Source of the DNA: Flavobacterium psychrotolerans
GTDB taxonomy: Bacteria > Bacteroidota > Bacteroidia > Flavobacteriales > Flavobacteriaceae
Direction: 5' to 3'
Length of the DNA stretch: 64,000 bases
Assembly (NCBI RefSeq): GCF_003097635.1
Contig: NZ_QCZI01000012.1
Span: forward strand, 1-64,000
How positions within the stretch are numbered: position 1 is the stretch's first letter; every line of letters begins with the position of its first letter. The notes under the pieces were generated by a model that was not told the DNA's origin, did not search any database, and was given only the letters and a program-made list of their open reading frames with translations. Positions 8,262 to 63,421 of the stretch are shown here, in pieces. The translations under genes and the position numbers were made by a program.

Positions 8262-8264
8262 TTC

Positions 8265-8876
8265 ATGTATTCTAACTTAAAAAATACGTTAGCAACAATT
8301 GTAACAATACCAATTTCAGAAGAAAGAAAAGAAATTCTTCAGCCTTTAGTAGATTATATTCAGGGTAACATTGATAATCAAAATACGATTAGATTGAATT
8401 TTATTTGTACCCATAATTCCAGACGAAGTCATTTGTCACAAGTTTGGGCACAAACCATGGCTTTTCATTTTGATATTAAAAACGTTTTCTGTTATTCTGG
8501 CGGAACGGAAGCAACAGCAGTATTTCCAAAAGTTGTTGAAACACTAGCAAATCAAGGGTTTCAAATTCAAAAGCTAAGCGAAACCAACAATCCGGTTTAT
8601 GCCGTAAAATTTGCCGAAAATGAGGCCGCAGTAATTTGCTTTTCGAAAATTTTTGATGATTCTTTTAATCCAACAACTCAATTTGCAGCCATAATGACTT
8701 GTTCCTCTGCTGATGAAGGTTGCCCATTTATTGCTGGAGCAGAAAAGCGTTTGCCTATTCGTTTTGAAGATCCAAAAGCATTTGACGGAACTGATTTGAT
8801 GAATGCCAAATATGCGGAGCGAAGTTTAGAAATAGCTTCTGAAATGTATTATGTTTTTTCAAATATTAAACAATAA
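8265..8876 (+). CDS. Arsenate reductase-like low-molecular-weight phosphatase
   Basis: A 203-residue member of the LMW protein-tyrosine-phosphatase/ArsC superfamily. The phosphate-binding loop FICTHNSRRSHLSQ follows the CX5R plan, and a later MTCSSADEGCPF segment supplies cysteines that could act in a thiol relay. It is longer than ordinary thioredoxin-linked ArsC (about 130-140 residues), with extra N- and C-terminal helices. It lies 3 nt after the methyltransferase and 72 nt before the ACR3 pump. Arsenate reduction is inferred from context and the loop. Confidence 0.85.
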   Translation: MYSNLKNTLATIVTIPISEERKEILQPLVDYIQGNIDNQNTIRLNFICTHNSRRSHLSQVWAQTMAFHFDIKNVFCYSGGTEATAVFPKVVETLANQGFQIQKLSETNNPVYAVKFAENEAAVICFSKIFDDSFNPTTQFAAIMTCSSADEGCPFIAGAEKRLPIRFEDPKAFDGTDLMNAKYAERSLEIASEMYYVFSNIKQ

Positions 8877-8948
8877 CAAATTCAATGACAATTTTAACCT
8901 TAAAGAATCTTAATAGTTTAAAACAAAAAAACTAAATTTTTTAAAAAC

Positions 8949-42020: not shown

Positions 42021-43115
42021 ATGAATACTACACGATATAACCGACAAATCATACTTCCAGAAGTGGGTGTTATTGGTCAACAAAAATTGCAACGAGCCAA
42101 AGTTTTAATCATTGGTGCAGGTGGATTAGGTGTGGCTGTTTTGCCTTATTTGACTGCGGCCGGTATAGGTGAAATTGGGATTATGGATGATGATAAGATC
42201 GATGTGACCAATTTGCACCGTCAAGTGATTTATAAAAGCAGTTCGGTGGGAAAAAGTAAAGTTCTTGAAGCGACAGCAATGGCTTTGGAACTAAATCCTT
42301 CAATAAAAATCAATGCAATTACCGAAAGGTTAAATCATAAAAATGCGATTTCGTTATTCGAACAGTATGATATTATAGTCGATGCTACCGATAATCTGAA
42401 TACAAAATATTTGATTAATGATGCTTGTTGTGTAACAAACAAGCCTTTTGTTTACGGATCTATTTATAAATTTGAAGGACAGGTTTCCGTTTTTAATTAT
42501 GAGGGTGGACCAACCTATCGTTGTTTATTTCCGGATGAAACGAGTGATTTTAGGGGTTGTAATGAGGCTGGAGTCTTGGGTATTTCAGTAGGAATTATTG
42601 GAATGTTTCAAGCAAATGAAGTTTTAAAAATTATTCTAGGAATAGGAGAGGTAATGTATGGTAAATTATTGGTTTATAATATTTTGAATAACGAACAACA
42701 AAAATTTGAATTTTCAAAATCAACTACCGTTACTATGGATAAGTTGAGTTTTGAAAAGAAATATGTTTTGTCTGAAAATCCTATTTTTGAAATCGCTGCC
42801 ATTGTCGCTTTAAAGCAAATTAATAATCCTAAAGTGGTTTTTTTGGATGTTCGAAATTCCGATGAATATCCAAAAATGGCTATCCATAGCTGTGTCCAAA
42901 TTCCATTAGATGAATTGGAAAAGGAATGGCATCGGTTGGACAGTACAGCAACGCTGTATGTTTTTTGTCAATCCGGAATTAGAAGTAAAAAGGCCGTTGA
43001 AATCCTTATGAAACATAATTTTGAGAATGTTAAGAGTATTGCGGGTGGTGCTAAAAAAATGGATAAAATAGGATATAACAAAACTGCTTCAGTTTCTAAT
43101 AGCATAAATAATTAG
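42021..43115 (+). CDS. moeB: MoeB/ThiF-type adenylyltransferase fused to rhodanese
   Basis: 364 residues. An N-terminal E1-like domain (residues 1 to ~240) with GAGGLGVAVLPYLTAAG and DATDNLNTKYLINDAC activates MoaD. A C-terminal rhodanese domain (~265-350) with VFLDVRNSDEY and active-site FCQSGIRS can supply sulfur. The zinc CxxC pairs of E. coli MoeB are not complete: the first reads PTYRCLFP and no C-terminal pair is seen. It starts 90 nt after moaD and ends 1 nt before moaE. Confidence 0.92.
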   Translation: MNTTRYNRQIILPEVGVIGQQKLQRAKVLIIGAGGLGVAVLPYLTAAGIGEIGIMDDDKIDVTNLHRQVIYKSSSVGKSKVLEATAMALELNPSIKINAITERLNHKNAISLFEQYDIIVDATDNLNTKYLINDACCVTNKPFVYGSIYKFEGQVSVFNYEGGPTYRCLFPDETSDFRGCNEAGVLGISVGIIGMFQANEVLKIILGIGEVMYGKLLVYNILNNEQQKFEFSKSTTVTMDKLSFEKKYVLSENPIFEIAAIVALKQINNPKVVFLDVRNSDEYPKMAIHSCVQIPLDELEKEWHRLDSTATLYVFCQSGIRSKKAVEILMKHNFENVKSIAGGAKKMDKIGYNKTASVSNSINN

Positions 43116-43695: not shown

Positions 43696-44610
43696 ATGGT
43701 CGATATCACACATAAAATAAGTACGCTCCGTACTGCAACAGCAAAAGCAACGGTAATTGTGAGTCTTCAAGCCACAATTGATGCCGTTGTAAATAATCTG
43801 GTTCCAAAAGGAAACGTACTTGAAATGGCTAAAACGGCAGGTTTATTTGCGGTGAAAAATACGCATTTATCCATTCCTGATTGCCATCCTATTCCAATTG
43901 AGTTTACATCGGTTGAATATGAAATCAACGAATTAAGTATTGATATTATCTTCAAAGTGAAAACGGTTTACAAAACCGGAGTTGAGGTCGAGGCGATGCA
44001 CGGTGCTTCTATTGTGGCGCTTACGATGTATGATATGCTCAAACCTATTGACAAAAATATAGAGATTTCGACGATTAAATTAATCAGTAAAGAAGGCGGA
44101 AAATCGTCTTTCAAAAATAGATTTCCATCCGCCATTAAAGCGGCGGTTTTCGTTTGTTCCGATTCTATTTTTGCGGGAGATAAAGAAGATCGTTCGGGTA
44201 AAATAATTGTTGAAAAACTGGAAGGTTGCGGAGTCGAAACTACGCATTACGAAATAATTCCGGATGAAATTGATGTAATTCAAGAGCGAACTAAAGCTTT
44301 CGCAAAAGAAAATCAATTGATCATTTTTACCGGAGGAACCGGGCTTTCGCCAAGAGACGTTACACCGCAAGCATTGGAGCCATTATTAGAAACCCGAATT
44401 CTGGGAATTGAAGAAGCCATACGTAGTTATGGGCAACAGCGCATGCCGTATTCCATGCTTTCTAGAACAGTCGCAGGAACTTTAGGAAATTCGTTGGTAT
44501 TGGCTTTGCCGGGTTCGACAAATGGCGCAAAGGAGTCTATGGATGCTGTATTTCCTCACGTGTTACATGTTTTTCATATTTTAAAGGGCAATAACCATGA
44601 TGTCGAATAA
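43696..44610 (+). CDS. moaCB: Bifunctional MoaC-MogA/MoaB fusion
   Basis: 304 residues joining two enzymes. Residues 1 to ~150 are MoaC (cyclic pyranopterin synthase: TATAKATVIV, LSIPDCHPIPIEFTSVEY, EAMHGASIVALTMYDM). Residues ~155-304 are MogA/MoaB (adenylylation of molybdopterin: VFVCSDSIFAGDKEDRSG, IIFTGGTGLSPRDVTPQAL). Such MoaCB fusions are known in several bacteria. It overlaps moaA by 14 nt. Confidence 0.94.
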   Translation: MVDITHKISTLRTATAKATVIVSLQATIDAVVNNLVPKGNVLEMAKTAGLFAVKNTHLSIPDCHPIPIEFTSVEYEINELSIDIIFKVKTVYKTGVEVEAMHGASIVALTMYDMLKPIDKNIEISTIKLISKEGGKSSFKNRFPSAIKAAVFVCSDSIFAGDKEDRSGKIIVEKLEGCGVETTHYEIIPDEIDVIQERTKAFAKENQLIIFTGGTGLSPRDVTPQALEPLLETRILGIEEAIRSYGQQRMPYSMLSRTVAGTLGNSLVLALPGSTNGAKESMDAVFPHVLHVFHILKGNNHDVE

Positions 44611-46808: not shown

Positions 46809-48248
46809 TTATAAAATGTCTATTTTTTGCCCTGTCAATGGTGTGAAATTTATTTTTGGAGATTCGCATAAGGAGCAGCAATAATCTTGCGGTAAATCCT
46901 TAAACAAAACCCCTTTTTCAATTCCTTGAATAATATCGCCGTATTCAGAATTGTATACCGTCAAACATTCGGGGCATTGGTGAATATCTTGTGCTGCTTT
47001 TTCTTTTTTTATGGAAGTTGTATTTACTTCAATAATTAAATTGCCTAAATCTTCAAAATACTTCCTGCTCAATTCAATCAAAATCGTTGGTAATTCGAGT
47101 TTGTCAACATCTTGGGTATGAACGATATATTCCTTGGTGTTTGGGTCAAAATTTTTGGCATACAACACGTTATAGGTATCCCTAATTTTGATGGATTCTA
47201 AGTCCTTTGGCAATTCATTTTTTTCGATTACTATTGAAGTGAAATAATGTCCCTCCCGATTGTAATCGGATATGCCAAAGGTAAGTCCGTATGTGCTAAT
47301 GTCAAATTGATCCAGCGTTCGAACCAAAAAAGTTTTAAGATTTAAAGCCCATTCCATCGCAACCGGTAAATGCCAGTTGAGTTCTAAGAGGGAATGACGC
47401 ACATTAATTCCTTTTTTTCCCAGGAATTTTTCCCAGTCCAGTTTTCGGTCTTTCGGAATCCCTTTTACAATAAAGGATTTCCATGGCGTAATACATATTT
47501 TACCAATTTTGCAATCAAAACATAAATCGCACATTTCTTTCAAAAATTCCAAGTCATAGAGGTTGTTTCTCCAGTATAATCCCAGCCAATATTGGTCAAT
47601 TCCCAGTTTGTTCATTCCTTCGTAATAAGGGAAAGGGTAGAATGGAATGTTTAGGGGTTTGTCGATGGTACGATTGTTTGTGTCTAAAGCATCGCTGACC
47701 AATTGAAAAATCATATCAACAGAATCAGGTTCTTCAATTAGTATTTTTTCAATCTCTGAATAGACTTCAGCTATATTCCAACTGTAAATCAATACGGGAT
47801 ACAGTTCCATTTTGTCCCATTTTGGCAAACGGATATATAAAAACCAATAATCTTCATGTTCTGAAGCAATAAAGTTGATATGCCCCGTAAACAAAGGAAC
47901 TAATTGTTGTTTTGGATCCGTTATATTTACTTTTAACTTTGGATGTTCTTTAAATTGCTCTAATATATATAAAAATTTATTTCCGGTAAGCCAAGGTGTG
48001 TTTCGGAAAATGTCCGTGGATACGTAGGAAGAAACGATGTTATTACCGCTTTTTTCATTGGGATAAACAAAATGATTTTTCCCTGTTTTAGTCTTGTCAA
48101 TTGGGGTAAAGCCTTTAGGGAATATAATGTCTTGCCTAGAACCAAAAGAGATGGCATTTATCCCTTGCTCTAATCCCATATTTACAATTTCTCGCAATTC
48201 ACCAGGTGAAATTACGCCTCCTTTTACTATTAATCTTGTCAATTCCAT
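46809..48248 (-). CDS. Nitrite/sulfite-reductase-like half-domain protein with C-terminal rubredoxin
   Basis: 479 residues. The N-terminus (KGGVISPGELREIVNMGLEQ and a following SFGSRQDIIFP) resembles the ferredoxin-like half-domain of nitrite/sulfite reductases and CobG. Near residues 240-260 is a cysteine-rich motif C-x2-C-x2-C-x5-C followed by ITPWKSFIVKG, again CobG/SiR-like. The last ~65 residues are a rubredoxin: CPECLTVYN and, after a 20-residue insert, LPQDYCCSLC. The usual siroheme cysteine pattern is not seen. It lies 28 nt downstream of the nitrate reductase gene, so I infer an electron carrier or a divergent reductase serving it. Confidence 0.75.
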   Translation of the reverse strand: MELTRLIVKGGVISPGELREIVNMGLEQGINAISFGSRQDIIFPKGFTPIDKTKTGKNHFVYPNEKSGNNIVSSYVSTDIFRNTPWLTGNKFLYILEQFKEHPKLKVNITDPKQQLVPLFTGHINFIASEHEDYWFLYIRLPKWDKMELYPVLIYSWNIAEVYSEIEKILIEEPDSVDMIFQLVSDALDTNNRTIDKPLNIPFYPFPYYEGMNKLGIDQYWLGLYWRNNLYDLEFLKEMCDLCFDCKIGKICITPWKSFIVKGIPKDRKLDWEKFLGKKGINVRHSLLELNWHLPVAMEWALNLKTFLVRTLDQFDISTYGLTFGISDYNREGHYFTSIVIEKNELPKDLESIKIRDTYNVLYAKNFDPNTKEYIVHTQDVDKLELPTILIELSRKYFEDLGNLIIEVNTTSIKKEKAAQDIHQCPECLTVYNSEYGDIIQGIEKGVLFKDLPQDYCCSLCESPKINFTPLTGQKIDIL

Positions 48249-48276: not shown

Positions 48277-51200
48277 TTATTTACATTTTGATAAAATTTC
48301 TTTCACTTCGGTTTTGCAACTTCCACAACCCAATCCAGCCCCCGTAGTTCTACATAATTCAGTAAAATTGGTTGTTCCGGCTTTTATGGCCTCTTCAATA
48401 TTTCCGCGTCCTACTTGGCTGCAAGAACAAACGAGTTTTCCTAAAACGGGTTTGGCATTCGAACTTCCTCTTAGTAAAGTATTTCTTTTATCAGATAACT
48501 CTATCTTGCTTTCAATTAGTGTTTTAAATTCAGCAAACTCGTTTTTATCGCCCATCAGAATTGCACCTACCAACAAATCGTTTTTGACCACACATTTTTT
48601 ATAATATCTTTTCCCCAAATCGGCAAACACGATTTCTTCATAGGAATCATCATTTTCCTGGATTTCAATTTCTCCGATACTACACAGATTGATATCTTCC
48701 AATTTCAGGATATTCATCAAAACGGAGCCTTTATAAAAGCTACTGATATCGCCGGCCATATAATTAGCTAATACGTCAGCTTGTTCTTCTGCCGCAGAGG
48801 TGATTCCGAACAATTGGTTGTTGAATTCGGCTATTTCTCCAATGGCAAAAACATTTGGTATTGACGATTGCAGGTACTGGTTTACTTTCACTCCACGTCC
48901 GCATGAAATTCCGGATTCTTTGGCTATTTCTATATTTGGAATTGTACCAATCGTATACACAATGGCATTGGCAGTGATAATTCGTCCACTTTTCAGGGCA
49001 ATTTCTAGTTCATTCGGATTTTCTGTTTCGAATACCGTACTAACTTCGTTATCAAAATAAATTTGAATGTCTCGAAGTTGTACTTCTTCTGCCAGTAATT
49101 TACTGGAAATACGATCCAGTTGACGTTCCATTAACCGGGAGGCTCTTTGAATTATTGTTATTTTTACTTTTTTATGCTTTAGGGCTGCGGCCAATTCCAA
49201 TCCTAATAATCCACCACCTACGATAACTACATGTTGTTCTTCTGCAACTAAATTAGTGCCGTCCAGATAGTTTTTCAATCGGTCTGCATCCTCTTTTTTC
49301 CGAATGGTGAATCGACCCGGTAAATGCAATTGCGCGTTTTCAGGAACAAAAGGTCGGCTTCCAGTAGCTAATATTAAGGAATCAAAAGCATGGATTGTAC
49401 CTTCACTATCGACAATTGTGTTTTCTTTGGTGTTTACATTGTCTATTGAAACACCCGATTTCATAGTGATATTCAGCTTACTTAACGCCTCGTCTTTTAT
49501 TTTCAAAAGCTGTTCCCAAGAAAGCTCCGCAGTTACGTATTCCGGTAATAAAACCCTGTTATAAAAAGGATTTTCCTCATTGGAAAACACAATAATTTCA
49601 TCGGTAGTATTGATTTCCCGGTAGTTTTGTATGAATCGGAATGCAGCGGCACCGGCACCCACAACTGCTATTTTCTCGAAAGGTTTCACATATTTAGAGA
49701 CGGAAACAGTGGTATATTTAAAATCGGGTTCTTTCGACACAGGGTCTACAAGAGTATTGGTTAAATTATTGGTTCGATTCAAATCGTTTTCCAATTGTTT
49801 TCCCCAGTGCATCGGCAAGAATAGAACACCTTCCCGAATTGTGTCGGATACTTTTGCTTTTACGCGAACAGTTCCGTTTTTGCTGGTTACGACAACAATA
49901 TTGCCGTTATTTATTGATGCTTTATAAGCATCAATAGGATTTATTTCGAGCACCGGACTCGGGATATGCGTCATCAATCGGGATACTTTGCCCGTTTTAG
50001 TCATGGTATGCCATTGGTCCCTAATGCGCCCCGTGGTAAGGATATACGGAAATTGATTATTAGGTTGTTCCGAAGTATTTTCAATGGCCGTTGGGATGTT
50101 GAAAATCGCTTTTTGCGAAGGGGTATAGAATTTTTTATCGGCAAATAAACGGGGTGTTCCAGGGTGTCCGTAATCTGGAACCGGCCATTGAAAAGTACCT
50201 TCGTTTTTGAGTCGATTGTAATTTAAAAAGGAAATATCGATGGTGGTGTTTTTTGTCATCAAACAATATTCCTTATAAACATCTTCGGGAGTGTTGAAAT
50301 TGAACCCGCTGAAATTCATTTTTTTCGCAAAACGAGTCAGAATTTCCACATCCGAAAGTGCTTCGCCTGGAGCATTTATGCCTTTCGGTAAATAAGAAAT
50401 ACGCCTTTCGGAATTGGTCATGGTTCCTTCTTTCTCCAGCCAACCAGCTGCGGGCAATAATAAATCGGCAAATTTTGACGTATCGGCATTATGAGAAATA
50501 TCCTGAACCACAACGAATTTGGCATTTGCCAATGCTTTTTCAACCCTGCGGGAATCGGGTAAACTGACCAAAGGATTGGTGCAAATAATCCAAATTGCCT
50601 TCATTTTTCCGGATTCCAAAGCATCAAACATTTCCGTAGCCGTCAACCCAGGTTTTTCGGATATCTCATCCTCGATTCCCCAAAAATCAGCCACTTCCTT
50701 GCGATGAACCGGATTATTCAATTCTTTATGAACCGCCAGTAAATTGGCCATTCCACCCACTTCACGACCTCCCATGGCGTTGGGTTGTCCCGTTAGTGAA
50801 AAGGGACCTGAGCCCGGTTTCCCCACGTGTCCGGTTAATAAGGAAAGGTTGAGCAAGGCCGTATTTTTATCCACGCCAATGGCACTCTGATTAAGTCCCA
50901 TTGCCCAAAGTGAAAGAAAACCTTTGGCTTTGCCTATCATGTCGGCTGCCAATTTGATGTCGTTTACGGATATTCCGCATAGTTTTGAGGCTTTCTCCAG
51001 CGAACTGGACATAACCAAGTCTTTATATAAGTTGAAATTTTCGGTGTGGTTTTTAATGAAATCATTGTCGGCATATCCTTTTTCGATCAACCTTTTGCCC
51101 AAGGCATGGTACAGAATAATGTCGGTACCCGGAACGATTTGTAAATGCAGATCAGCTGCTATTGCCGAATCGGTTCTTCTGGGATCGATTACGATAATTT

Positions 51201-51792
51201 TTACTTTCGAATTTTTCTCTTTGTGCTGTTCAATTCGACGAAAGAGAATAGGATGACACCAAGCAGGATTGGCTCCGGTTATCAAGAAAGTGTCCGCCAA
51301 TTCGATGTCGTCATAAGCAATGGGTACGGAATCTTCTCCAAATGTTTTTTTGTAACCCGCCACCGCCGAACTCATGCACAAGCGGGAGTTGGTATCGATA
51401 TTGTTGGTTTTTAGAAATCCTTTTACCAGTTTGTTTACGAGGTAATATTCTTCGGTTAGGCATTGTCCCGAGATGTAAAACCCTACGCTATCTGGCCCAT
51501 GTTTTTTTATTATGGAAGAAAAAACAGCGGCTGCACGATCTAAAGCAGTATCCCAGCTCACCCTCTCTTTGGGATGGGATTTGCTCCAACGCATTTCAGG
51601 ATAAAGTATTCTGTCGGAAGTGTCGTTCACAACATAATGAAGGTTCATGCCTTTAGAGCAGAGCATTCCTTTGTTCACCGGATGGTTTACATCTCCTTTT
51701 ACGCTTACCCCGTTTTTAGGATCATTGGTTACTATAATTCCACATCCCACTCCACAATAGGAACACGTGGTTTTGATTTCTGATTTTTGCAT
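48277..51792 (-). CDS. nasC: Assimilatory nitrate reductase: MGD domain fused to FAD-NirB-like and BFD domains
   Basis: 1171 residues. Residues 1 to ~690 are a NasC/NapA-type molybdopterin oxidoreductase with the [4Fe-4S] motif C10-x2-C13-x3-C17-x27-C45 and the Mo-ligand cysteine in NSRLCMSSAV. From ~695 to ~1090 is a NAD(P)H/FAD reductase like the N-terminus of NirB (VVGAGAAAFRFIQNY, VVIVGGGLLGLELAAAL). The end is a BFD [2Fe-2S] domain (CSCSQVGRGNIEEAI ... GLGCGSCKTEV). The fusion makes one polypeptide able to pass electrons from NAD(P)H to nitrate. It is divergent from the FNR-type regulator, with palindromes between. Confidence 0.93.
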   Translation of the reverse strand: MQKSEIKTTCSYCGVGCGIIVTNDPKNGVSVKGDVNHPVNKGMLCSKGMNLHYVVNDTSDRILYPEMRWSKSHPKERVSWDTALDRAAAVFSSIIKKHGPDSVGFYISGQCLTEEYYLVNKLVKGFLKTNNIDTNSRLCMSSAVAGYKKTFGEDSVPIAYDDIELADTFLITGANPAWCHPILFRRIEQHKEKNSKVKIIVIDPRRTDSAIAADLHLQIVPGTDIILYHALGKRLIEKGYADNDFIKNHTENFNLYKDLVMSSSLEKASKLCGISVNDIKLAADMIGKAKGFLSLWAMGLNQSAIGVDKNTALLNLSLLTGHVGKPGSGPFSLTGQPNAMGGREVGGMANLLAVHKELNNPVHRKEVADFWGIEDEISEKPGLTATEMFDALESGKMKAIWIICTNPLVSLPDSRRVEKALANAKFVVVQDISHNADTSKFADLLLPAAGWLEKEGTMTNSERRISYLPKGINAPGEALSDVEILTRFAKKMNFSGFNFNTPEDVYKEYCLMTKNTTIDISFLNYNRLKNEGTFQWPVPDYGHPGTPRLFADKKFYTPSQKAIFNIPTAIENTSEQPNNQFPYILTTGRIRDQWHTMTKTGKVSRLMTHIPSPVLEINPIDAYKASINNGNIVVVTSKNGTVRVKAKVSDTIREGVLFLPMHWGKQLENDLNRTNNLTNTLVDPVSKEPDFKYTTVSVSKYVKPFEKIAVVGAGAAAFRFIQNYREINTTDEIIVFSNEENPFYNRVLLPEYVTAELSWEQLLKIKDEALSKLNITMKSGVSIDNVNTKENTIVDSEGTIHAFDSLILATGSRPFVPENAQLHLPGRFTIRKKEDADRLKNYLDGTNLVAEEQHVVIVGGGLLGLELAAALKHKKVKITIIQRASRLMERQLDRISSKLLAEEVQLRDIQIYFDNEVSTVFETENPNELEIALKSGRIITANAIVYTIGTIPNIEIAKESGISCGRGVKVNQYLQSSIPNVFAIGEIAEFNNQLFGITSAAEEQADVLANYMAGDISSFYKGSVLMNILKLEDINLCSIGEIEIQENDDSYEEIVFADLGKRYYKKCVVKNDLLVGAILMGDKNEFAEFKTLIESKIELSDKRNTLLRGSSNAKPVLGKLVCSCSQVGRGNIEEAIKAGTTNFTELCRTTGAGLGCGSCKTEVKEILSKCK

Positions 51793-51973: not shown

Positions 51974-52678
51974 ATGAAAGAAGAAGTAGCAATTTGTAAT
52001 GCCTGCTCAAATGTAAATTGTTTTATTAAAAAACACATTCATTTAGATCAAATGAAAGATTACATTGATAGAAAGCGCAGTTTTGGTTGTAAAAAATCGC
52101 AACAATTTATCATTGAGGGCGCACCAATTCAGGGGTTGTATTTTATTTATAAAGGAAAAGTCAAGACCGTTAAGACAGGAATCAACGGAAGGGAGCAAAT
52201 CGTGAGATTCACTAAAGACGGGGATACTGTTGGTTTTAGGGGTTTTGGCGCAAGCAAAAGATACCTTATTGGCGCTTACGCTCTGGAAGATACCCTATTG
52301 TGTAATTTCAGCAACGAAGATATGTTAGACATCCTTCGAAATGTTCCTGAGATTACTTTTGATTTAATGTTATTTTATGCAGACGAGTTAAATAAAAGTG
52401 AAAATAAGATTAGAAAAATTGCCCAAATGAACGTGAGGGAAAGGGTAATTGATACCTTATTATATATTCACAAAAAATTTGGTCAAATTAACGGCATAAT
52501 TGAACTTGATTTGTCCAGAAAGGAAATCGCCGATTTTGCAGGAACTACTGAAGAGCAAGTAATACGGGTCATTTCAAGCCTAAAAAAAGAATTGCTGATA
52601 AAATCCGTTGGCAAGAAAATAGGCTTAATTAATATAGACAAACTACAGTCCGAAATAAGGGAGCATAAGTATCTATAA
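51974..52678 (+). CDS. FNR-type Crp-family regulator with four cluster cysteines
   Basis: A 234-residue Crp/Fnr protein. The N-terminus carries C8-x2-C11-x4-C16, and C110 lies in ALEDTLLCNF, which aligns with ALETSMVCEI around C122 of E. coli FNR; together these match the four [4Fe-4S] ligands of FNR. The cyclic-nucleotide-like beta barrel spans ~30-130, followed by the dimer helix and a winged helix with recognition helix GTTEEQVIRVISSLKKE. Relative to FNR the helix keeps the Glu and Arg but has Ile for the selective Ser. I infer an oxygen- or NO-sensitive regulator of the surrounding nitrate genes. Confidence 0.88.
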   Translation: MKEEVAICNACSNVNCFIKKHIHLDQMKDYIDRKRSFGCKKSQQFIIEGAPIQGLYFIYKGKVKTVKTGINGREQIVRFTKDGDTVGFRGFGASKRYLIGAYALEDTLLCNFSNEDMLDILRNVPEITFDLMLFYADELNKSENKIRKIAQMNVRERVIDTLLYIHKKFGQINGIIELDLSRKEIADFAGTTEEQVIRVISSLKKELLIKSVGKKIGLINIDKLQSEIREHKYL

Positions 52679-53134: not shown

Positions 53135-53160
53135 TACGTAAAAATACTTACGTATATTTG
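53135..53160 (+). promoter_or_regulatory. Promoter of the porin-nrt operon with nitrate-regulon palindrome
   Basis: TACGTAAAAATACTTA (53135-53150) is followed after 2 nt by an exact -7 element TATATTTG (53153-53160). The box thus occupies the place of the -33 element, the position expected for an activator touching RNA polymerase. The porin ATG is at 53185. Confidence 0.65.
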
Positions 53161-53184
53161 TACCGAACCAATAAATCAAATAAA

Positions 53185-54636
53185 ATGGAAAAGATTAAAA
53201 CAACACTTTTAAATATTTTGGGTTTAGGAAAAATAGAAACCCAAAAAGTAAAAATTTCAAAATCACTAATTTGCGGCATAACCTTATCATTAATAAGTTA
53301 TAACAATGCCAATGCGCAATTAACCGCCACTGGACAAATAAGAACCAGGACCGAAATGAGAGCGGGTCAGGGTACACTTCAAAAGCTAAGCGATAACCAT
53401 GCACTATTCACTTCTCAAAGAAGCCGATTAAATTTAGGATTTACAGGTTACCGATTCAAAGTATTTACGGCATTGCAAGATGTTCGTGTTTGGGGACAAG
53501 ATGCTTCTTCCATTAACAGAACAACCACAGAGGCAAATAACGGTGTGATGCTTCATGAAGCTTGGGCGGAAGTGATGTTAAATGACACGATTAGCAGTAT
53601 TCAAAACCTGTCATTAAAGGTTGGGCGTCAGGAAATTGCCTACGATGACCAAAAAGTATTAGGGGGCTTAGACTGGTTGCAACAAGGCCGAAGACACGAT
53701 GCGATTGTTTTAAAATTCGCCAATAAAGGATGGATTGCCGATGTTGGAGCCGCCTTTAACCAAAATAAGGAGCTGCCCGCGGGAACGGTTTATAATGGAA
53801 TACCTACGGCTTATGGGGCGGGGACTAATGGCATTGGTACAATGTACAAATCGTTTCAATATGCTTATATAGACAAGAAATTCTTTTTTGGAGACCTGTC
53901 ATTTCTGTACTTTAAGGATGATTTTAACAAATATACCAGCGTGACTTCCGGAGTACCTGCCGTGACGACTATTACCTCTGGTACTGGAGTTTGGAGCCGC
54001 AACACGACCGGAATTTACTTTAATACGACTATTAAAAGAAAATTAAACCTAACAGGAAGTGCATACTACCAAGGTGGGCATGATAAGGATGGAAGGTCTA
54101 TAAAAGCCAATTTAGCATCTATAACTTCAACATTACAAGTGGGAAGAAAATTATTTGTAGGTCCCGGGGTTGATTATTTGTCCGGAGATGACGGAACAAA
54201 AACTGTTACGGCTTCGTCAGACAATAACCGCTTTGATCCACTTTATGGTACGCCACACAAGTTTTGGGGAGGTATGGATTATTTTTATGCCGCCAGCGGA
54301 TTTGGAAAACAGGGTCTCTTGAACTATTTCTTTAAGGCAAAATATAATATGAAAGACAATTTGACTTTTTTATTAGAAGTTCATGGTTTTGAAGCAGCAA
54401 ACAAGCTGTCTAATGGAACTGGAGGTACAAGAGATTCTTATTTAGGGACAGAATTAGACTTTATTGTAAAATACAATCTAACCAAAATGGTCAATTTTGA
54501 AGCAGGATATTCTATCATGAAAGCCACAAATTCAATGGCATCAGCGCAGGTGAAAAATGTTACAACTCCGGATTTAAGTCCACAATTTGCCTATGTGACA
54601 TTAAACATCAAACCGAATTTCTTAGCTAAGAAATAA
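53185..54636 (+). CDS. Alginate-export-family outer-membrane porin
   Basis: About 483 residues. A signal-like N-terminus (SLICGITLSLISYNNANAQ) is preceded by an unusually long cytoplasmic stretch, and the remainder is beta-barrel sequence of the alginate_exp type (QIRTRTEMRAGQG, LNLGFTGYRFKVFTALQDVR, a GRQEIAYDDQKVLG turn). I start it at 53185 (MEKIKTTLLN); the TTG frame from 53158 overlaps the promoter. As first gene of the nrt operon it probably admits nitrate or nitrite through the outer membrane, not alginate. Confidence 0.85.
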   Translation: MEKIKTTLLNILGLGKIETQKVKISKSLICGITLSLISYNNANAQLTATGQIRTRTEMRAGQGTLQKLSDNHALFTSQRSRLNLGFTGYRFKVFTALQDVRVWGQDASSINRTTTEANNGVMLHEAWAEVMLNDTISSIQNLSLKVGRQEIAYDDQKVLGGLDWLQQGRRHDAIVLKFANKGWIADVGAAFNQNKELPAGTVYNGIPTAYGAGTNGIGTMYKSFQYAYIDKKFFFGDLSFLYFKDDFNKYTSVTSGVPAVTTITSGTGVWSRNTTGIYFNTTIKRKLNLTGSAYYQGGHDKDGRSIKANLASITSTLQVGRKLFVGPGVDYLSGDDGTKTVTASSDNNRFDPLYGTPHKFWGGMDYFYAASGFGKQGLLNYFFKAKYNMKDNLTFLLEVHGFEAANKLSNGTGGTRDSYLGTELDFIVKYNLTKMVNFEAGYSIMKATNSMASAQVKNVTTPDLSPQFAYVTLNIKPNFLAKK

Positions 54637-54656
54637 TAACAATTAACTTCTACAAG

Positions 54657-55892
54657 ATGAAAAATTTTAATACACAAATAAAAAGACTTTTAACAAGATC
54701 AATGTTAGCCTTGGTTACAATGCTCATTTCATTATCGGTAACAACAACCAATGCCCAGTCTAAAGAACCGATTAAGTTGGGATTTATTCCACTGACAGAT
54801 TGTTCTCCTATAGTTATGGCAAAAGAATTGGGTTTGTTCAAAAAATATGGAGTTGATGTTGTAGTGACCAAAGAAACTTCATGGGCCAATGTTCGCGACA
54901 AGATTTTAACTGGAGAACTGGACGGGGCACACTGTTTGTATTCTATGCCATTCTCAGTATATACAGGGGTTGGCGGCAAAGCAGGATCAGAAATGATGAT
55001 TGCCATGATGCTAAACGTAAACGGTCAGGCCATAACGCTTTCGAATGATTTTTGCGGAAAAGTAGGTTTTAAGCAAATGAATAAGGTAACTCCGGTTGTT
55101 GCGGCAAAATTAAAGGCAGAAAAAGAAGTAACCTTTGCCATGACATTCCCTGGGGGGACTCACGATTTGTGGTTGCGCAATTGGATGTCATTAGCGGGAT
55201 TGAATCAAAGAGCAGTTAAAATCATTACGATTCCTCCTCCTCAAATGGTGGCCAACATGAAGGTTGGAAACATGGATGGCTATTGCGTAGGAGAACCATG
55301 GGGCGGTGTTGCCGTAAAACAAGGCATTGGTTTTACCCAAATTGCATCTCAAGACATCTGGAAAGACCATCCTGAAAAAGCATTAGTCGTAAACAAGGAA
55401 TTCAGCAAGGAACGCAGAGAGGATCTTAAAAAAGTGATGAAAGCGATTATGGAAGCCTGTATTTGGCTTGACAGCCCTGCAAATCGGAAAAAAGCGGCTG
55501 CAATTATCGGAAAAGCACCTTACGTAAACGCTCCTGCCGATGTGATTGAAGCCCGATTGATGGGAGATTACAATTTGGGTTGCAACCAAGGGGTAGAAGT
55601 GTATGACAACGACTATATGTTGTTTCACAAAGGCGGAATGGTCAACTTTCCTCGAAAATCCTACGCCATTTGGGCAATGGCACAATATGTACGATTCGGA
55701 TATTTGAAAGAAGCTCCCAATTACAAAGCGATTGCAGATAAATTGATTTTGGATGATTTGTATAAAGAAGTGGCTGCCAGCATGAAGGTAAAAGTGCCGA
55801 ATGATGACATGAAACCGTTTTCTCTCACCATGGACAAAACCGTTTTTGACCCTTCAAATCCCGAAGCCTATTTAAAAGTCGTAAAAAGATAA
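54657..55892 (+). CDS. nrtA: NrtA/CmpA-type periplasmic nitrate-binding protein
   Basis: A 411-residue ABC substrate-binding protein with a signal peptide (LALVTMLISLSVTTTNAQS) and no lipobox cysteine, so it is a free periplasmic protein. The body is of the NrtA/CmpA/SsuA type: IKLGFIPLTDCSPIVMAKEL, GELDGAHCLYSMPFS and VGEPWGGVAVKQGIG. Nitrate is the expected ligand from context; bicarbonate or nitrite are the alternatives within the family. It is followed by an intra-operon hairpin. Confidence 0.92.
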   Translation: MKNFNTQIKRLLTRSMLALVTMLISLSVTTTNAQSKEPIKLGFIPLTDCSPIVMAKELGLFKKYGVDVVVTKETSWANVRDKILTGELDGAHCLYSMPFSVYTGVGGKAGSEMMIAMMLNVNGQAITLSNDFCGKVGFKQMNKVTPVVAAKLKAEKEVTFAMTFPGGTHDLWLRNWMSLAGLNQRAVKIITIPPPQMVANMKVGNMDGYCVGEPWGGVAVKQGIGFTQIASQDIWKDHPEKALVVNKEFSKERREDLKKVMKAIMEACIWLDSPANRKKAAAIIGKAPYVNAPADVIEARLMGDYNLGCNQGVEVYDNDYMLFHKGGMVNFPRKSYAIWAMAQYVRFGYLKEAPNYKAIADKLILDDLYKEVAASMKVKVPNDDMKPFSLTMDKTVFDPSNPEAYLKVVKR

Positions 55893-55910
55893 AACGATTG
55901 AATTAAACAG

Positions 55911-55950
55911 CATTCTTATCCCTCTTTTTTGCAGGGAGGGATAATGAATG
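55911..55950 (+). promoter_or_regulatory. Intra-operon hairpin between nrtA and nrtB
   Basis: CATTCTTATCCCTC (55911-55924) pairs with GAGGGATAATGAATG (55936-55950) along 14 bp with one bulged base. No T-run follows. A stable hairpin here could protect the nrtA message or partly stop transcription, giving more binding protein than permease. Confidence 0.6.
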
Positions 55951-55990
55951 ATTGCGTAACAAAAACATAATTAAACTAAACTATATTACC

Positions 55991-56878
55991 ATGTCTGATA
56001 AAGATACATTAACCATCGACGAACTAGATCAAACAATCTGTGTTTTGACAGAAAGCAAAACGGAAAGTTTTGCTGAAAACGAAAAGCTAAAATCAGCATT
56101 AAATATTTTAATTTTAAAATCGAAATCGGTACTTTTTCCCTGTCTTGGTTTACTGATTTTTGCAGGATTTTGGAGTCTGGTAAGCATTTATACTAAAGAG
56201 GCATTGCCTGGGCCAAAAGCTACATTAACCGTTTTATACGAAATGTTGCGTGATCCATTTTATGATTACGGCCCTAACGACAAAGGCATCGGATTGCAAT
56301 TATTCGTTTCGATAAAAACGGTACTTTCTGGCTTTTTGCTAGGGTCATTAATTGCAATTCCAATCGGGATTTTGATGGGAGCAAGCGCCATTTGTAAACA
56401 AATTTTGTATCCAATTGTGCAACTGCTAAAACCGGTTTCTCCCTTGGCCTGGTTTCCAATAGGTTTGGTGGTTTTTAAAGATACGGGAATGGCCACCATA
56501 TTTATTGTATTTATTACGTCTTTATGGTCAACTTTAATTAATACCTCTTTTGGTGTGGCTTCAATTCCGCAAGATCATAAGAATGTGGCTAAAGCATTTG
56601 GTTTTTCAAAAATGAGATATTTAACAAAAATATTGATTCCATACAGTTTGCCCCACATCATTACGGGATTGCGTTTGAGCATCAGCGTGGCATGGTTGGT
56701 AATTGTGGCTGGCGAAATGTTGTCAGGCGGGGCAGGAATCGGGTTCTTTGTATGGGACAGCTGGAATGCCTTGAGCTTAGAAAAAGTAATATCAGCCATC
56801 ATCATTATAGGTGTTGTAGGATTACTATTTGACAGAATCTTCACTTTTATCGAAAACAAAGTAGCTTATAAAGCTTAA
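55991..56878 (+). CDS. nrtB: Nitrate ABC transporter permease NrtB
   Basis: About 295 residues. After a ~45-residue cytoplasmic head come about six helices of the SsuC/NrtB permease family. The coupling loop lies near PQDHKNVAKAFGFSKMRYLT, with the conserved LPHIITGLRLSISVAWLVIV helix after it. I start it at 55991 (MSDKDTLTID); an in-frame TTG at 55952 falls close to the hairpin. It is followed 21 nt later by nrtD. Confidence 0.92.
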   Translation: MSDKDTLTIDELDQTICVLTESKTESFAENEKLKSALNILILKSKSVLFPCLGLLIFAGFWSLVSIYTKEALPGPKATLTVLYEMLRDPFYDYGPNDKGIGLQLFVSIKTVLSGFLLGSLIAIPIGILMGASAICKQILYPIVQLLKPVSPLAWFPIGLVVFKDTGMATIFIVFITSLWSTLINTSFGVASIPQDHKNVAKAFGFSKMRYLTKILIPYSLPHIITGLRLSISVAWLVIVAGEMLSGGAGIGFFVWDSWNALSLEKVISAIIIIGVVGLLFDRIFTFIENKVAYKA

Positions 56879-56899
56879 TAACATAAAAAAATCACAACC

Positions 56900-57706
56900 A
56901 TGAGTTATTTAGAAATCAAAGATTTGGAAATTTCGTTTCCAACTCCAAAAGGGAAATATGTTGCGGTAAGAGACATTAATTTGTCCATCAAAAAAGGGGA
57001 AATTATCTCCATCATCGGACATTCAGGTTGCGGAAAATCGACCATCATGAATGCCATAGGAGGGATGCTTACGCCAACGGGGGGAACGGTAGAATTAGAC
57101 AGTAAAAAGATAAAAGGGCCGGGACCGGATCGAGGAATTGTTTTTCAGAATTATTCCCTTTTGCCTTGGATGTCAGTGCATGAAAATATCTTTCAGGCGG
57201 TAGATTCAGTAATGGATTGTTCCAAGAAAGAAAAACATGAAATCGTGGACAATAATCTTAAAATGGTTAATTTATTGGAACACCGAGATAAATTACCAGG
57301 ACAATTGTCCGGTGGGATGAAACAAAGAGTCGCCATTGCCAGAGCCTTTGCCATCAATCCAGGAGTTTTATTGCTTGATGAACCTTTTGGCGCGCTTGAT
57401 GCCCTTACTAAAGGCTCCATGCAATTGGAGGTTTTGAAATTATGGAACTTGAACAACAGAGATAAAACGATTGTCATGATTACCCATGATATAGAGGAAG
57501 CCTTGTTTTTGTCAGACAGAATTGTGGTGTTAAATAACGGTCCCGCTTCTACTATTCGAGAAATCGTTGAGGTGCATTTGCCAAGGCCAAGAAACAAAAT
57601 TGAAATCGTGAAAATGCCTGAATATATTGAATTAAGGGATAAATTATTGCACCTATTAACCGATAAATTCTCTATTGAAGATATGGGAATGGTGTATAAA
57701 AATTAG
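56900..57706 (+). CDS. nrtD: Nitrate ABC transporter ATPase NrtD
   Basis: A 268-residue ATP-binding subunit. Walker A is GHSGCGKST, the signature LSGGMKQRVAIARAF, Walker B LLLDEPFGALDAL, and the switch histidine is in MITHDIEEA. It is the NrtD/SsuB type with no extra C-terminal sensing domain. A terminator follows at 57731. Confidence 0.94.
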   Translation: MSYLEIKDLEISFPTPKGKYVAVRDINLSIKKGEIISIIGHSGCGKSTIMNAIGGMLTPTGGTVELDSKKIKGPGPDRGIVFQNYSLLPWMSVHENIFQAVDSVMDCSKKEKHEIVDNNLKMVNLLEHRDKLPGQLSGGMKQRVAIARAFAINPGVLLLDEPFGALDALTKGSMQLEVLKLWNLNNRDKTIVMITHDIEEALFLSDRIVVLNNGPASTIREIVEVHLPRPRNKIEIVKMPEYIELRDKLLHLLTDKFSIEDMGMVYKN

Positions 57707-57982: not shown

Positions 57983-60900
57983 ATGATGTACCAAAACGGC
58001 ATTTATGAGCAACTAATAACCAAATTAGTATTTTCAAAAATCAATGATTTAGACAAAGCAAAGTTTTATATCAAACAGAATGAAATTGATAAAAACGAAG
58101 CAGCAAGATTATTTTCACAATATTTGTCAGAAGTAATTAGATTTGCTCTGAACCTAATTTCCGGAGATGATAGTGTTGAAAAACAAATTGAACTTTCTAA
58201 CAAAATTATTAATCTTTTAAAGAAGGAATTAAATAATAATGAGTTTGACGAAGATTTAATAGCTACTGAAGCACGGATTCTTTCTGCAATTTTCTCAAAA
58301 TTAAATGCTAATTTTTCTGATTTTGAAAAACATCTCAAAGAGATTACTCCATATACAAGATTGTCTCAAAGTGAATTATTTACAGGAAGTAATGCTGGAA
58401 TTTCACTTGAAAGTGAAATTAAAAAAGAAATTTTGTCATCTGATAAAATAAACTTCCTAGTTTCATTTATTAAATGGACAGGTATTAGAATTTTTGAAAA
58501 AGAATTGTCTGAATTTACCGAAAGAGGAGGTGAATTAAAAATCATTACAACATCCTATATGGGAGCTACTGATTTGAAAGCAGTAGAATATTTATCAACT
58601 TTAAAAAATACAGAAATCAAGGTTTCATACAATACAGAAAATGAAAGACTTCACGCAAAAGCGTATTTATTTTATAGAAATACTGGTTTTCATACTGGTT
58701 ATATTGGATCTTCTAATATTTCACGTTCAGCATTAACGAGTGGTTTAGAATGGAATTTGAAAGTTACTACAAAAGAGGTGGGTCATATAATTGATAAATT
58801 TCAAAAAACATTTGAAACCTATTGGCAAGACAAAGAATTTGAATTGTTTGACAAATCGAAAGATACTGAAAAATTAAGAATCGCTTTAAAAAAGGAAAAA
58901 TCGTATGAAAAAAATAATTCATCAGCTTATTTTGACTTAAAACCTTTTCCATTTCAAGAAGAAATTTTAGAAAAATTAGAAACGGAAAGAATTGTACATA
59001 AACGATATAAAAATTTAATAGTTGCAGCAACCGGGACAGGAAAAACAGTAATTTCAGCTTTTGATTTTAAATTTTTCAAGAAAAATAATCCAAGTGCTAA
59101 ATTATTGTTTGTTGCGCATCGTAAAGAAATTTTACAACAAGCACAGGCAACATTCCAAGGTGTTTTAAAAGATAATAATTACGGCGAATTATGGGTTGAT
59201 GGAATTGAACCAGAAAAATATGATTGTGTTTTTGCGTCTGTTCAAACGTTGAATAATAGAATAGATTCTTTACAACTTTCTAATACATTTTATGATTTCA
59301 TTATTGTAGATGAAGTTCATCATATAGCCGCATCGAGTTACAGATCAATTCTAAAACATTTTGAACCTAAAATACTTTTGGGCTTGACCGCAACTCCTGA
59401 AAGGATGGATAATGAAGATATTCTTAAGGATTTTTGTAATGTAATTGCTGCTGAAATACGATTACCTGAAGCGCTTAATAGAAAATTACTTTGTCCTTTT
59501 CAGTATTTTGGAATTACAGACAGTATTGATTTATCTAATGTTACTTGGCAAAATGGAAGATATTCACCAAGTGAGCTTACAAATATTTATACTAGAAGTG
59601 ATAAAAGAATTGGTGAAATAATTTCAAACCTAAACAAGTATCTTACAAATATAAAAGACGTAAGAGCACTTTGCTTCTGTATCAGTCAAGAACATGCTCA
59701 ATTTATGGCAGAGAAATTTTTACTTTCAGGTTTGAAGGCTGATTATTTAGTGAGTTCAAGAAATGAAATAAGAGATGATATTAGAAAAAGATTCTCTAGC
59801 AAACAGATTAATTATCTTTTTGTTGTAGATATTTTCAATGAAGGAGTTGATATTCCAGAAATAGATACAGTTTTATTTCTAAGGCCAACAGAAAGTTTAA
59901 CTGTTTTTCTTCAACAACTTGGTAGAGGTTTGAGATTAGCAGAAGATAAAGAATGTTTAACAGTGTTAGATTTTGTTGGAAATTCAAGACCAGAATATGA
60001 TTATGAAGGTAAATTTAGAGCTCTGGTAGGGAAAACAAATACCTCAATTCAAAAAGAATTGGAAGATAATTTTCCGCATTTGCCATTGGGCTGTTCCATT
60101 AATTTAGAAAAAAAGGCAAAAGATTATATATTAAAAAACATTCATAATGCTACAGCTTTAAATACCAATCAACTTTTAAATAAAATCCGTAATTATAAAC
60201 ATCAAACGACTTTACCACTAACATTAAAAAACTTTTCGAATTTTTATCATATTCCATTACAATTGATTTATAAAAAAGGAAATTGGAAAAGATTGTGTGT
60301 GAAAGCTGAACAAATTGAGAATTACGTACCCATAAATGAAACCGAAATTTACAGAGCGATCAATAAAAAGTGGTTTTCTTGTAATTCATTTTCTTATTTT
60401 CAATTTATAATAAAATTGGCTAAAGACAATTTTATTATTGATTTTGAAAAACTTTCTGATGAAGAAAAATTAATGTGTTTGATGCTTCATTATGATGTTT
60501 GGCAAACTGTAGGAACTTTAGATTCTCTAGAAGAAAGTATTAGGTTGATAGGTAATAATAAAGTCTTGACAAATGAAATAATAGAAGTACTTGAATTATT
60601 AATTGATAGGATAGATTTTATTGAAAAAGAAGTTCAACTTGATTATTCACAGCCTTTAAAAGTACACAGTCGTTATACTAGAGAACAAATCTTAGCCGCT
60701 TTTGGAGATAGTACCTTTTTGAAAAAATCTAGCAATAGAGAAGGAGTTGTTAATTTGGAAGATAAGAATACAGAGCTCCTGTTAGTAACGTTAGAAAAAG
60801 CAGAAAAAAATTATTCGCCAACAACAATGTATAATGATTATGCCATTAATGAAGAAATTTTTCACTGGCAATCACAAAATTCATCAAAACCAGAAATTGG

Positions 60901-61126
60901 AAAAGGATTATCATATATCAATCATCAAAAAAACAAAAAGAAAATATTACTTTTTGTAAGAGAACAAAATACCAATCAGTTTGGGAATACAATGGGATAT
61001 GTCTTTTTGGGAGATGTAAATTATCAAAAACATTATGGTACAAAACCCATGAGTATTAATTGGAAACTAAACGAACCTTTGCCTCCTTATTTATGGAAAT
61101 CGACAGTTAAAATGTCTGTTGGATAG
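57983..61126 (+). CDS. PLD-nuclease/DEAD-helicase/DUF3427 protein
   Basis: 1047 residues in three parts. Residues ~130-270 resemble a phospholipase-D-type nuclease (ERLHAKAYLFY ... GYIGSSNIS; the H-x-K is present but the usual Asp is not). Residues ~320-680 are a superfamily 2 helicase with AATGTGKTV, DEVHHIAASSY, GLTATPER and QQLGRGLRLAEDKE. The C-terminus (~780-1047) is DUF3427 (NEEIFHWQSQNSS, PMSINWKL). The design suggests DNA processing in defence or repair. AT content is higher than that of the nrt genes. It converges on a broken restriction endonuclease gene, overlapping it by 20 nt. Confidence 0.88.
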   Translation: MMYQNGIYEQLITKLVFSKINDLDKAKFYIKQNEIDKNEAARLFSQYLSEVIRFALNLISGDDSVEKQIELSNKIINLLKKELNNNEFDEDLIATEARILSAIFSKLNANFSDFEKHLKEITPYTRLSQSELFTGSNAGISLESEIKKEILSSDKINFLVSFIKWTGIRIFEKELSEFTERGGELKIITTSYMGATDLKAVEYLSTLKNTEIKVSYNTENERLHAKAYLFYRNTGFHTGYIGSSNISRSALTSGLEWNLKVTTKEVGHIIDKFQKTFETYWQDKEFELFDKSKDTEKLRIALKKEKSYEKNNSSAYFDLKPFPFQEEILEKLETERIVHKRYKNLIVAATGTGKTVISAFDFKFFKKNNPSAKLLFVAHRKEILQQAQATFQGVLKDNNYGELWVDGIEPEKYDCVFASVQTLNNRIDSLQLSNTFYDFIIVDEVHHIAASSYRSILKHFEPKILLGLTATPERMDNEDILKDFCNVIAAEIRLPEALNRKLLCPFQYFGITDSIDLSNVTWQNGRYSPSELTNIYTRSDKRIGEIISNLNKYLTNIKDVRALCFCISQEHAQFMAEKFLLSGLKADYLVSSRNEIRDDIRKRFSSKQINYLFVVDIFNEGVDIPEIDTVLFLRPTESLTVFLQQLGRGLRLAEDKECLTVLDFVGNSRPEYDYEGKFRALVGKTNTSIQKELEDNFPHLPLGCSINLEKKAKDYILKNIHNATALNTNQLLNKIRNYKHQTTLPLTLKNFSNFYHIPLQLIYKKGNWKRLCVKAEQIENYVPINETEIYRAINKKWFSCNSFSYFQFIIKLAKDNFIIDFEKLSDEEKLMCLMLHYDVWQTVGTLDSLEESIRLIGNNKVLTNEIIEVLELLIDRIDFIEKEVQLDYSQPLKVHSRYTREQILAAFGDSTFLKKSSNREGVVNLEDKNTELLLVTLEKAEKNYSPTTMYNDYAINEEIFHWQSQNSSKPEIGKGLSYINHQKNKKKILLFVREQNTNQFGNTMGYVFLGDVNYQKHYGTKPMSINWKLNEPLPPYLWKSTVKMSVG

Positions 61127-63392: not shown

Positions 63393-63413
63393 CATAATAC
63401 TTATATTTTTACA

Positions 63414-63421
63414 CAAAAATA
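63414..63421 (-). promoter_or_regulatory. -7 element of narK
   Basis: On the minus strand this reads TATTTTTG, an exact TAnnTTTG match, 22-29 nt before the chosen ATG. A half-site TACTTA of the nitrate palindrome abuts it (63420-63425 on the plus strand reads TAAGTA). Confidence 0.6.

Follow-up and report, generated by a model that had tools for sequence, protein, structure and literature searches.

In the stretch of DNA analysed here (the window: 64,000 nucleotides, positions 1 to 64,000 of Flavobacterium psychrotolerans contig NZ_QCZI01000012.1), the minus-strand gene at 46,809-48,248 encodes a protein of 479 amino acids (aa) in which a relative of siroheme reductases is joined to a C-terminal rubredoxin, and which appears to be without a described counterpart in the open-licence literature. 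Judged by sequence, the core of this protein is a siroheme-reductase fold without its cofactor site, all four cluster cysteines being gone. In the sampled Bacteroidota the core protein is inherited together with the nitrate-to-ammonia pathway. We propose, with a probability of roughly 0.4, that it acts as an accessory electron-transfer subunit in the assimilatory reduction of nitrate to ammonia, within a system composed of a fused NADH-dependent nitrate reductase (NasC) and NirBD, for which we infer the electron flow, the complex and the ligand.

The gene was delimited by its open reading frame (ORF), its domains and its homologues. In the Pfam scan, NIR_SIR_ferr was matched in two stretches (29.3 bits, gathering threshold 24; best stretch at residues 232-274) and Rubredoxin (PF00301) at residues 423-468 (37.6 bits, gathering threshold 23). 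No further Pfam domain was found at E <= 1, and Rieske, ferredoxin and known output domains are all absent. The first NIR_SIR_ferr stretch is N-terminal and was placed by profile alignment together with the structure model. The preliminary description of this gene had recognized a ferredoxin-like half-domain of siroheme reductases; the kinship stands, while the limitation to a half-domain does not, given the two stretches and an alignment along the whole fold. As indicated by sequence comparison and modelling, the core is a complete siroheme-reductase fold of the type (NIR_SIR_ferr + NIR_SIR) repeated twice.

Modules of the protein, all on the minus strand, follow one another as in sulfite reductases. 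The first NIR_SIR_ferr half-domain (residues about 3-60; 48,069-48,242), in which R38-Q39 takes the position of the sulfite reductase TTRQ motif according to alignment and model, is followed by the first diverged NIR_SIR-like half (about 61-206; 47,631-48,068), which was delimited by hhalign and conservation. The second NIR_SIR_ferr half-domain (about 221-280; 47,409-47,588) is placed by the Pfam stretch and by the model, in which it comprises a helix (233-245), two strands (250-254 and 258-262) and another helix (266-278). The second diverged NIR_SIR-like half (about 281-400; 47,049-47,408), again delimited by hhalign and conservation, covers the expected place of the cluster and siroheme cysteines, none of which is there. 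A linker (401-422; 46,983-47,048), weakly conserved in the homologue alignment, connects the core with the C-terminal rubredoxin (423-468; 46,845-46,982), identified by PF00301 and by rubredoxins of the PDB.

Relationship of the core to sulfite and nitrite reductases was assessed with a profile (A3) of 29 diverse members, covering residues 1-407, in which the other members are 30-86% identical to the window copy. It was compared with 37 tandem-repeat sulfite/nitrite reductases from the same genomes, chosen by their cysteine motifs (the enzyme of genome G388 is included twice). Aligned by hhalign, the two profiles matched at 96.6% (E 5.1e-10) over 402 columns, while 40 column-shuffled controls gave at most 0.9% and the reversed alignment 0.2%. 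The match varies with the reductase set: 91.8% (382 columns) for 17 short reductases, 32% (89 columns) for 15 long ones, 75% for a first set of five reductases, 15% for five NirA and 5.7% for NirB. Among the 29 members of the profile, 28 have a PF03460 (NIR_SIR_ferr) match at E <= 1, and none has a match to PF01077, the NIR_SIR 4Fe-4S domain, at the same threshold. When the core sequence profile was compared with solved structures, no reductase was among the matches, and the best chance matches were proteasome subunits (E 0.06); kinship thus escapes a sequence profile set against single PDB chains, but is picked up by profile-profile comparison.

Structure models are poor. The AlphaFold model of the core (A5, 80 sequences, residues 1-407) reached a mean predicted local distance difference test (pLDDT) score of 50.7 and a predicted template-modelling (pTM) score of 0.41, and the model of the whole protein (A1, 50 Flavobacterium-type sequences) 43.8 and 0.28; confidence in the core model is fair for the two NIR_SIR_ferr half-domains only. 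In Foldseek, all top 31 chains matched by the core model are sulfite or nitrite reductases (best E 3.4e-6, 13 chains at E <= 0.001), with low TM-scores (0.20-0.32) and high root-mean-square deviations. VIA-align gave Z 9.1-10.5 for the best entries of the sulfite reductase hemoprotein (SiRHP) and for Mycobacterium tuberculosis NirA; plant nitrite reductases scored 6.1-6.7, and the first entry of an unrelated kind 4.5. On the 1aop entry, 111 residues were superposed at 2.3 A, model residues 3-282 falling on chain residues 81-422. The comparison with reductase folds envisaged in the preliminary description thus came out in favour of kinship, with fold matches that rest on a low-confidence model and mainly on residues 1-283, the second catalytic half (283-407) being barely probed.

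The closest known systems are SiRHP/CysI and NirA, which carry NIR_SIR_ferr and NIR_SIR twice. Likeness consists of two ferredoxin-like half-domains in the same order, with about 400 residues aligned, and the top fold matches of the core model are E. coli SiRHP and M. tuberculosis NirA. In contrast to them, the protein described here has neither the cysteine motifs nor PF01077, and has a C240-x2-C243 pair of its own and a C-terminal rubredoxin.

To characterize the cofactor region, we used an alignment of 120 distinct homologue rows, the window protein included (88 rows at least 75% identical to it, 32 below). In the region aligned to residues 253-424, C-x5-C or C-x3-C, the ligands of [4Fe-4S] and siroheme, occurs in 0/120 rows, and the window protein has no cysteine at all between these residues, which agrees with the earlier remark that the usual cysteine pattern is missing. 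By this sequence evidence, the protein lacks the cofactor ligands that define sulfite and nitrite reductases and should not be classed among them.

A different cysteine motif, C-x2-C-x2-C-x5-C, is formed in the window protein by C240, C243, C246 and C252 and is followed by the ITPWKSFIV segment, which falls within the second NIR_SIR_ferr stretch. Both had been reported in the preliminary description and are present as stated, yet as a feature of the family only the first two cysteines are general (C240 in 119/120 rows and C243 in 120/120; 47,520-47,531). Among the 32 rows less than 75% identical, C246 is found in one and C252 in 15. A [4Fe-4S] cluster on the four cysteines as a general feature was rejected because C246 and C252 vary; within Flavobacterium alone such a cluster is possible. 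To our knowledge, the C240-x2-C243 pair is absent from canonical reductases.

In the core, 32 positions are unchanged in 120/120 rows, including the ten that belong to genes without a rubredoxin. Among them are R38, Q39, N70, S74, W86, Q114, P118 and N125 in the first half, P207, Y208, E210, G211, W221, G223, Y225, R227, C243, W256 and K257 in the middle, and N282, R284, H285, E289, K305, D316 and N370 in the second half; K106 (117/120), T254 (119/120) and N291 (119/120) are nearly invariant. Conservation and hhalign place T254-P-W-K257 (47,478-47,489) opposite the T-x-x-Q that sulfite reductases have in their second half-domain, and a conserved block, N282-x-R284-H285-xxx-E289-L-N291 (47,376-47,405), lies near the place of C-x5-C. 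In an alignment that is uncertain in its fine detail, R38-Q39 coincides with the TTRQ motif, whose arginine contacts siroheme, and K106 with the second lysine of RKFK. The anion-binding residues of E. coli sulfite reductase are R83, R153, K215 and K217; in the same uncertain residue alignment, K106 falls at the RKFK lysine just named, position 104 varies, and position 5 is R or K in 116/120 rows.

The 46 residues of the rubredoxin fill profile positions 2-47 of 47 one to one. The domain proposed earlier at the C-terminus is thereby confirmed, without the insert that had been ascribed to it. Its best match among PDB rubredoxins has E 1.2e-7. The four FeCys4 cysteines (C425, C428, C458 and C461) are kept in 109-110 of the 120 rows and fail only in the ten rubredoxin-less rows and, for the second pair, in L026, which is cut by a contig end. 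The domain shares with other rubredoxins the C-x2-C ... C-x2-C arrangement and a score above gathering, and differs from them in that it is fused at a C-terminus instead of being a free carrier. One gene beside nasC (L132 9493-10941, the same as the L113 gene) has a shortened rubredoxin with just 8 residues between the C-x2-C pairs.

The reading frame is intact (479 codons) and starts 28 bp past the stop codon of the nasC-like gene on the same strand. This partner gene (48,277-51,792, minus strand; ORF and Pfam) encodes a fused NADH nitrate reductase of 1171 aa, in which a 4Fe-4S/molybdopterin enzyme is joined to a FAD/NADH module with Pyr_redox_2, Rubredoxin_C and a BFD [2Fe-2S] domain; the nitrate reductase does carry its own NAD(P)H module, as had been noticed from the sequence. 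In 19 loci with full-length copies (L115-L133), the protein is encoded 3' of nasC on the same strand without exception, in 17 as the immediate neighbour and in two (L131 and L133) beyond one intervening ORF. In six of the 19 (L117, L118, L119, L122, L125 and L132) the two frames overlap, with starts chosen by rule. Divergence of NasC and of the core protein is correlated across 20 paired loci (r = 0.84), a value not controlled for shared ancestry, which by itself would give a positive r. Left out of this count were L131 and L166, whose protein came out truncated or extended through the start codon selected, L120 and L121, which the motif filter did not catch, L133, in which the protein was not picked up, and L165, in which NasC is incomplete.

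Occurrence was surveyed in a phylum sample of 392 Bacteroidota genomes and in a sample of 195 genomes of family f4; five f4 genomes are in both, and the samples are not fully independent. At E <= 0.001, 100 of the 392 genomes matched the protein, 67 through the rubredoxin part only and 33 with the core (E < 1e-60). Full-length fused NasC was found in 36 genomes, in 31 as a close form (>1400 bits, at least 57% identity, nearly full length) and in five as a distant one (1075-1348 bits), and NirB (E <= 1e-150) in 31. The same 31 genomes hold close fused NasC, NirB and the core protein, and no other genome has the NasC-NirB pair. Rubredoxin is included in the match in 30 of them; in G370 the match stops at residue 434 owing to a shortened rubredoxin. 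The remaining two core-positive genomes, G388 and G126, have rubredoxin-less copies of 431 and 429 aa. In the window's genus, half of the genomes (13/26) have core, NasC and NirB, and the other half none of the three at the thresholds used; in G285, also of this genus, nothing but a molybdoenzyme match of 37% identity was obtained.

The five genomes with distant NasC (G219, G050, G008, G155 and G179) have neither the core protein nor NirB at E <= 1e-150, and a NirA-type reductase frame lies within the same 16-19 kb stretch; in G155, flavodoxin and FNR-like genes stand beside NirA and NasC. A cluster of this other type (L139 3116-11700) contains genes for a narK-like protein, NirA, flavodoxin, an FNR-like protein and fused NasC, without the core protein.

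In family f4 the core was found in 44 of 195 genomes and NasC (E <= 1e-150) in 35, all of them among the 44. Eight of the other nine core-positive genomes have the rubredoxin-less form only, and in the ninth, G411, full-length NirB is present and a 508-aa frame starts close to the end of a contig, so that a NasC gene may simply be missing from the assembly. Co-occurrence with nasC, suggested in the preliminary description as a test, thus holds in the phylum sample for 31 of the 33 core-positive genomes and breaks down in the rubredoxin-less clade, with eight genomes that have neither NasC nor NirB at the thresholds applied.

This clade is made up of ten orphan genes within one family, 419-432 aa in length, that stop before the rubredoxin (L134, L135 at 7825-9120, L151, L152, L153, L155, L156, L157, L159 and L162). 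In a core tree of 38 rows built by a quick method they form one side of a single branch (SH-aLRT 100), nested among full-length copies under midpoint rooting; one clade has lost the rubredoxin. In the 4.4-18 kb read around them, with L134 and L162 truncated at contig ends, none of these genes adjoins nasC, and no shared neighbour was seen in Pfam scans of chosen neighbours at six of the ten loci (L161 was scanned as well). G520 and G480 have a rubredoxin-less gene in addition to a full-length copy beside nasC, and in G388 the rubredoxin-less gene lies between the sulfite reductase gene and hem/cysG genes. Pairwise comparison of eight rubredoxin-less genes (28 pairs) shows 2.1-3.1 times as many differences at third as at first codon positions, and the core is therefore under selection away from nasC. 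In the eight genomes without NasC, no second NIR_SIR locus was found besides sulfite reductase, and a direct NirB search gave only partial matches in the flavin-type region (at most 105 bits; G425 is just 83% complete). In G407 (98% complete), neither a NIR_SIR match nor a cobA-type methylase nor a CysG N-terminal domain was found, although a single assembly gap could account for all three absences. With the eight genomes that have neither NasC nor NirB, the core extends beyond nitrate reducers.

Of the roles suggested earlier for the protein (electron carrier, nitrite channel and divergent reductase), the one most readily reconciled with the context is that of a carrier or coupling protein. 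As an accessory electron-transfer subunit, the protein would use its rubredoxin, which has a canonical FeCys4 motif, as a tethered one-electron carrier. The electrons may come from the FAD/[2Fe-2S] module, similar to rubredoxin reductase, of NasC or of NirB, and would be handed on inside a NasC-NirB assembly. The cofactor-less core would dock this carrier on its partners, perhaps holding an anionic ligand such as nitrite in the remnant of the old active site. In this way nitrate reduction could be coupled to nitrite reduction, much as has been suggested for Paracoccus NasG. The occurrence of the protein with clusters of the NirB type, and its absence from those of the NirA type, agrees with a link between NasC and NirB.

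Several observations weigh against such a carrier. NasC and NirB each have their own NADH/FAD and [2Fe-2S] modules, and no carrier is obviously missing. Five of the 36 genomes with full-length fused NasC do without the core protein, although their NasC are distant in sequence and the absence may represent one event. In two of these five NasC, Pfam finds identical FAD and [2Fe-2S] modules. G398 (L161 9385-10866) and G557 (L164 9172-10653) each have a second full-length copy at a distance from nasC, contradicting a strict rule that the rubredoxin goes with nasC. Moreover, NirB and close NasC co-occur so perfectly that the partner of the core protein cannot be told. Finally, the core is kept without rubredoxin, NasC (E <= 1e-150) and NirB in eight genomes and must therefore have a job of its own, beyond pure NasC docking.

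A non-redox role is rather unlikely. The core would here be a scaffold or nitrite conduit that uses its mimicry of the fold to dock NasC onto NirB's siroheme domain and passes nitrite on, the rubredoxin serving as a structural metal knob or docking tag. NirB does carry NIR_SIR_ferr and NIR_SIR (Pfam), presence of the protein follows NirB and not the NirA type, and the rubredoxin is lost in the clade unlinked to nasC. On the other hand, NirB itself matches only weakly in the direct profile comparison, every row that extends far enough has all four cysteines of the rubredoxin, and the core is conserved in genomes without NirB.

It is also unlikely that the core is still an enzyme, with a redox site rebuilt from invariant polar residues and the tethered rubredoxin replacing the lost [4Fe-4S] relay. 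C240, C243, H285 and E289 might then bind iron or zinc, or heme or siroheme might be held without a cysteine ligand. The 32 invariant core positions, R38, Q39, R227, K257, R284, H285, E289, K305 and D316 among them, speak for this possibility, as does the codon-position evidence for selection on the core away from nasC. No cofactor motif is recognizable, however, and G407, apparently without siroheme enzymes and synthesis, argues against siroheme, if weakly, because these genes are often clustered. A broader version, which we likewise regard as unlikely, would see a stripped siroheme-reductase fold with a new candidate site (C240/C243 and H285/E289, with basic R38, R227, K257 and R284) and the rubredoxin as a relay: a new redox enzyme or nitrogen-oxide subunit acting with or, in one clade, without nitrate reductase. 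What chiefly keeps this new-site reading alive is that the core persists where NasC, NirB and rubredoxin are all missing.

A siroheme chaperone or assembly factor, a siroheme-binding fold without a catalytic cluster that loads NirB (and sulfite reductase in rubredoxin-less genomes), is improbable. It would suit the cobA-type methylase genes in clusters L116, L118, L120, L127, L130 and L168, the position of the G388 gene between sulfite reductase and hem/cysG genes, and the alignment of R38 with the siroheme-contacting arginine of TTRQ. Such a factor leaves the rubredoxin unexplained, and no siroheme or hem reference genes were seen in the stretches read at L151, L152, L153, L155, L156, L157, L159 and L162; in addition, G407 retains the core while apparently lacking siroheme enzymes and synthesis, and the five genomes with NasC and NirA manage without the protein. 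A regulatory pseudo-enzyme, which would sense nitrite or redox state (the latter through its rubredoxin) and thereby control NasC activity, would account for a conserved core with no recognizable cofactor site and for the close pairing with nasC, but is likewise improbable in view of the missing known output domain and of the eight genomes in which the core persists without NasC.

Comparison with other described proteins was extended to CobG (precorrin-3B synthase), with which the likeness is presumably the TPW-K/R segment in the ferredoxin-like half-domain; no CobG model was matched in NCBIfam at E <= 1, and the protein has no cluster cysteines. The NCBIfam search at this threshold returned two rubredoxin-type matches and nothing else, HMMER filters possibly dropping weak ones. 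NirD and NasG resemble the protein in proposed role only: it has no Rieske or ferredoxin domain, and a separate nirD-sized gene stands beside nirB in the same cluster. In PMC4724949, NasG of proteobacterial nas systems is proposed to link the NADH module by electron transfer to the sites for nitrate and for nitrite. No description of the protein was found in the accessible portions of the open-licence literature, PMC4724949 and PMC13381448 included.

Copies on plasmids were found in four records, from Bacteroidota genera only, and two of them are annotated merely as rubredoxin. As an illustration, the Hymenobacter volaticus plasmid 'rubredoxin' WP_245126150.1 is 34.7% identical over 96%, in a gene order of the window type (nirD, MFS transporter, nitrate reductase, this protein, cobA); its entry is a database name only, with no function attached. 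One scan of viral contigs gave no relative of the protein, PADLOC gave no match, and the sole match in PHROGs has E 0.15.

Nitrate assimilation in Bacteroidota thus appears to use a component for which no described counterpart was found. If coupling of NasC to NirB is true, it would explain how these bacteria avoid nitrite release, and if the core is active, a siroheme-reductase fold would be working without its usual centre. As a genomic marker, the rubredoxin-bearing form occurs in the phylum sample exactly where close fused NasC and NirB do.

Further genes of the nitrate region surround the pair in the window. A divergent Crp/Fnr-type regulator is encoded at 51,974-52,678 (plus strand; ORF and Pfam), and at 53,158-57,706 (plus strand) are genes for a porin (Alginate_exp) and a nitrate/nitrite-type ABC transporter, of which the binding protein is Pfam NMT1_2 and the permease and ATPase were named by eye. 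A major facilitator superfamily (MFS) transporter, NarK-like by eye from its sequence, is at 61,914-63,416 on the minus strand. Genes for DUF4202, a nirD-sized protein and NirB are on the same contig just past the window (G000:C12, about 66-70 kb), while the sulfite reductase gene of the same genome is on a different contig, C3. The DUF4202 gene, which follows the nirD-sized gene in L114 (6149-6736, minus strand) and is also present in nas clusters L117, L118, L130 and L168, is a further undescribed companion of nitrate assimilation.

In locus L161, a RelA/SpoT gene adjoins the second full-length copy. Between the ABC transporter genes and the NarK-like gene of the window, a 1047-aa protein with PLD-nuclease, helicase and DUF3427 parts is encoded at 57,983-61,126 (plus strand); PADLOC assigns it to mREase_IV, a type IV methyl-directed restriction enzyme (E 2e-227). 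Within a molybdenum-cofactor gene set, MoaC is joined to a MoCF_biosynth (Mog-like) domain at 43,696-44,610 (plus strand), and near this fusion, at 42,021-43,115, a ThiF/MoeB-like protein is joined to a rhodanese domain.

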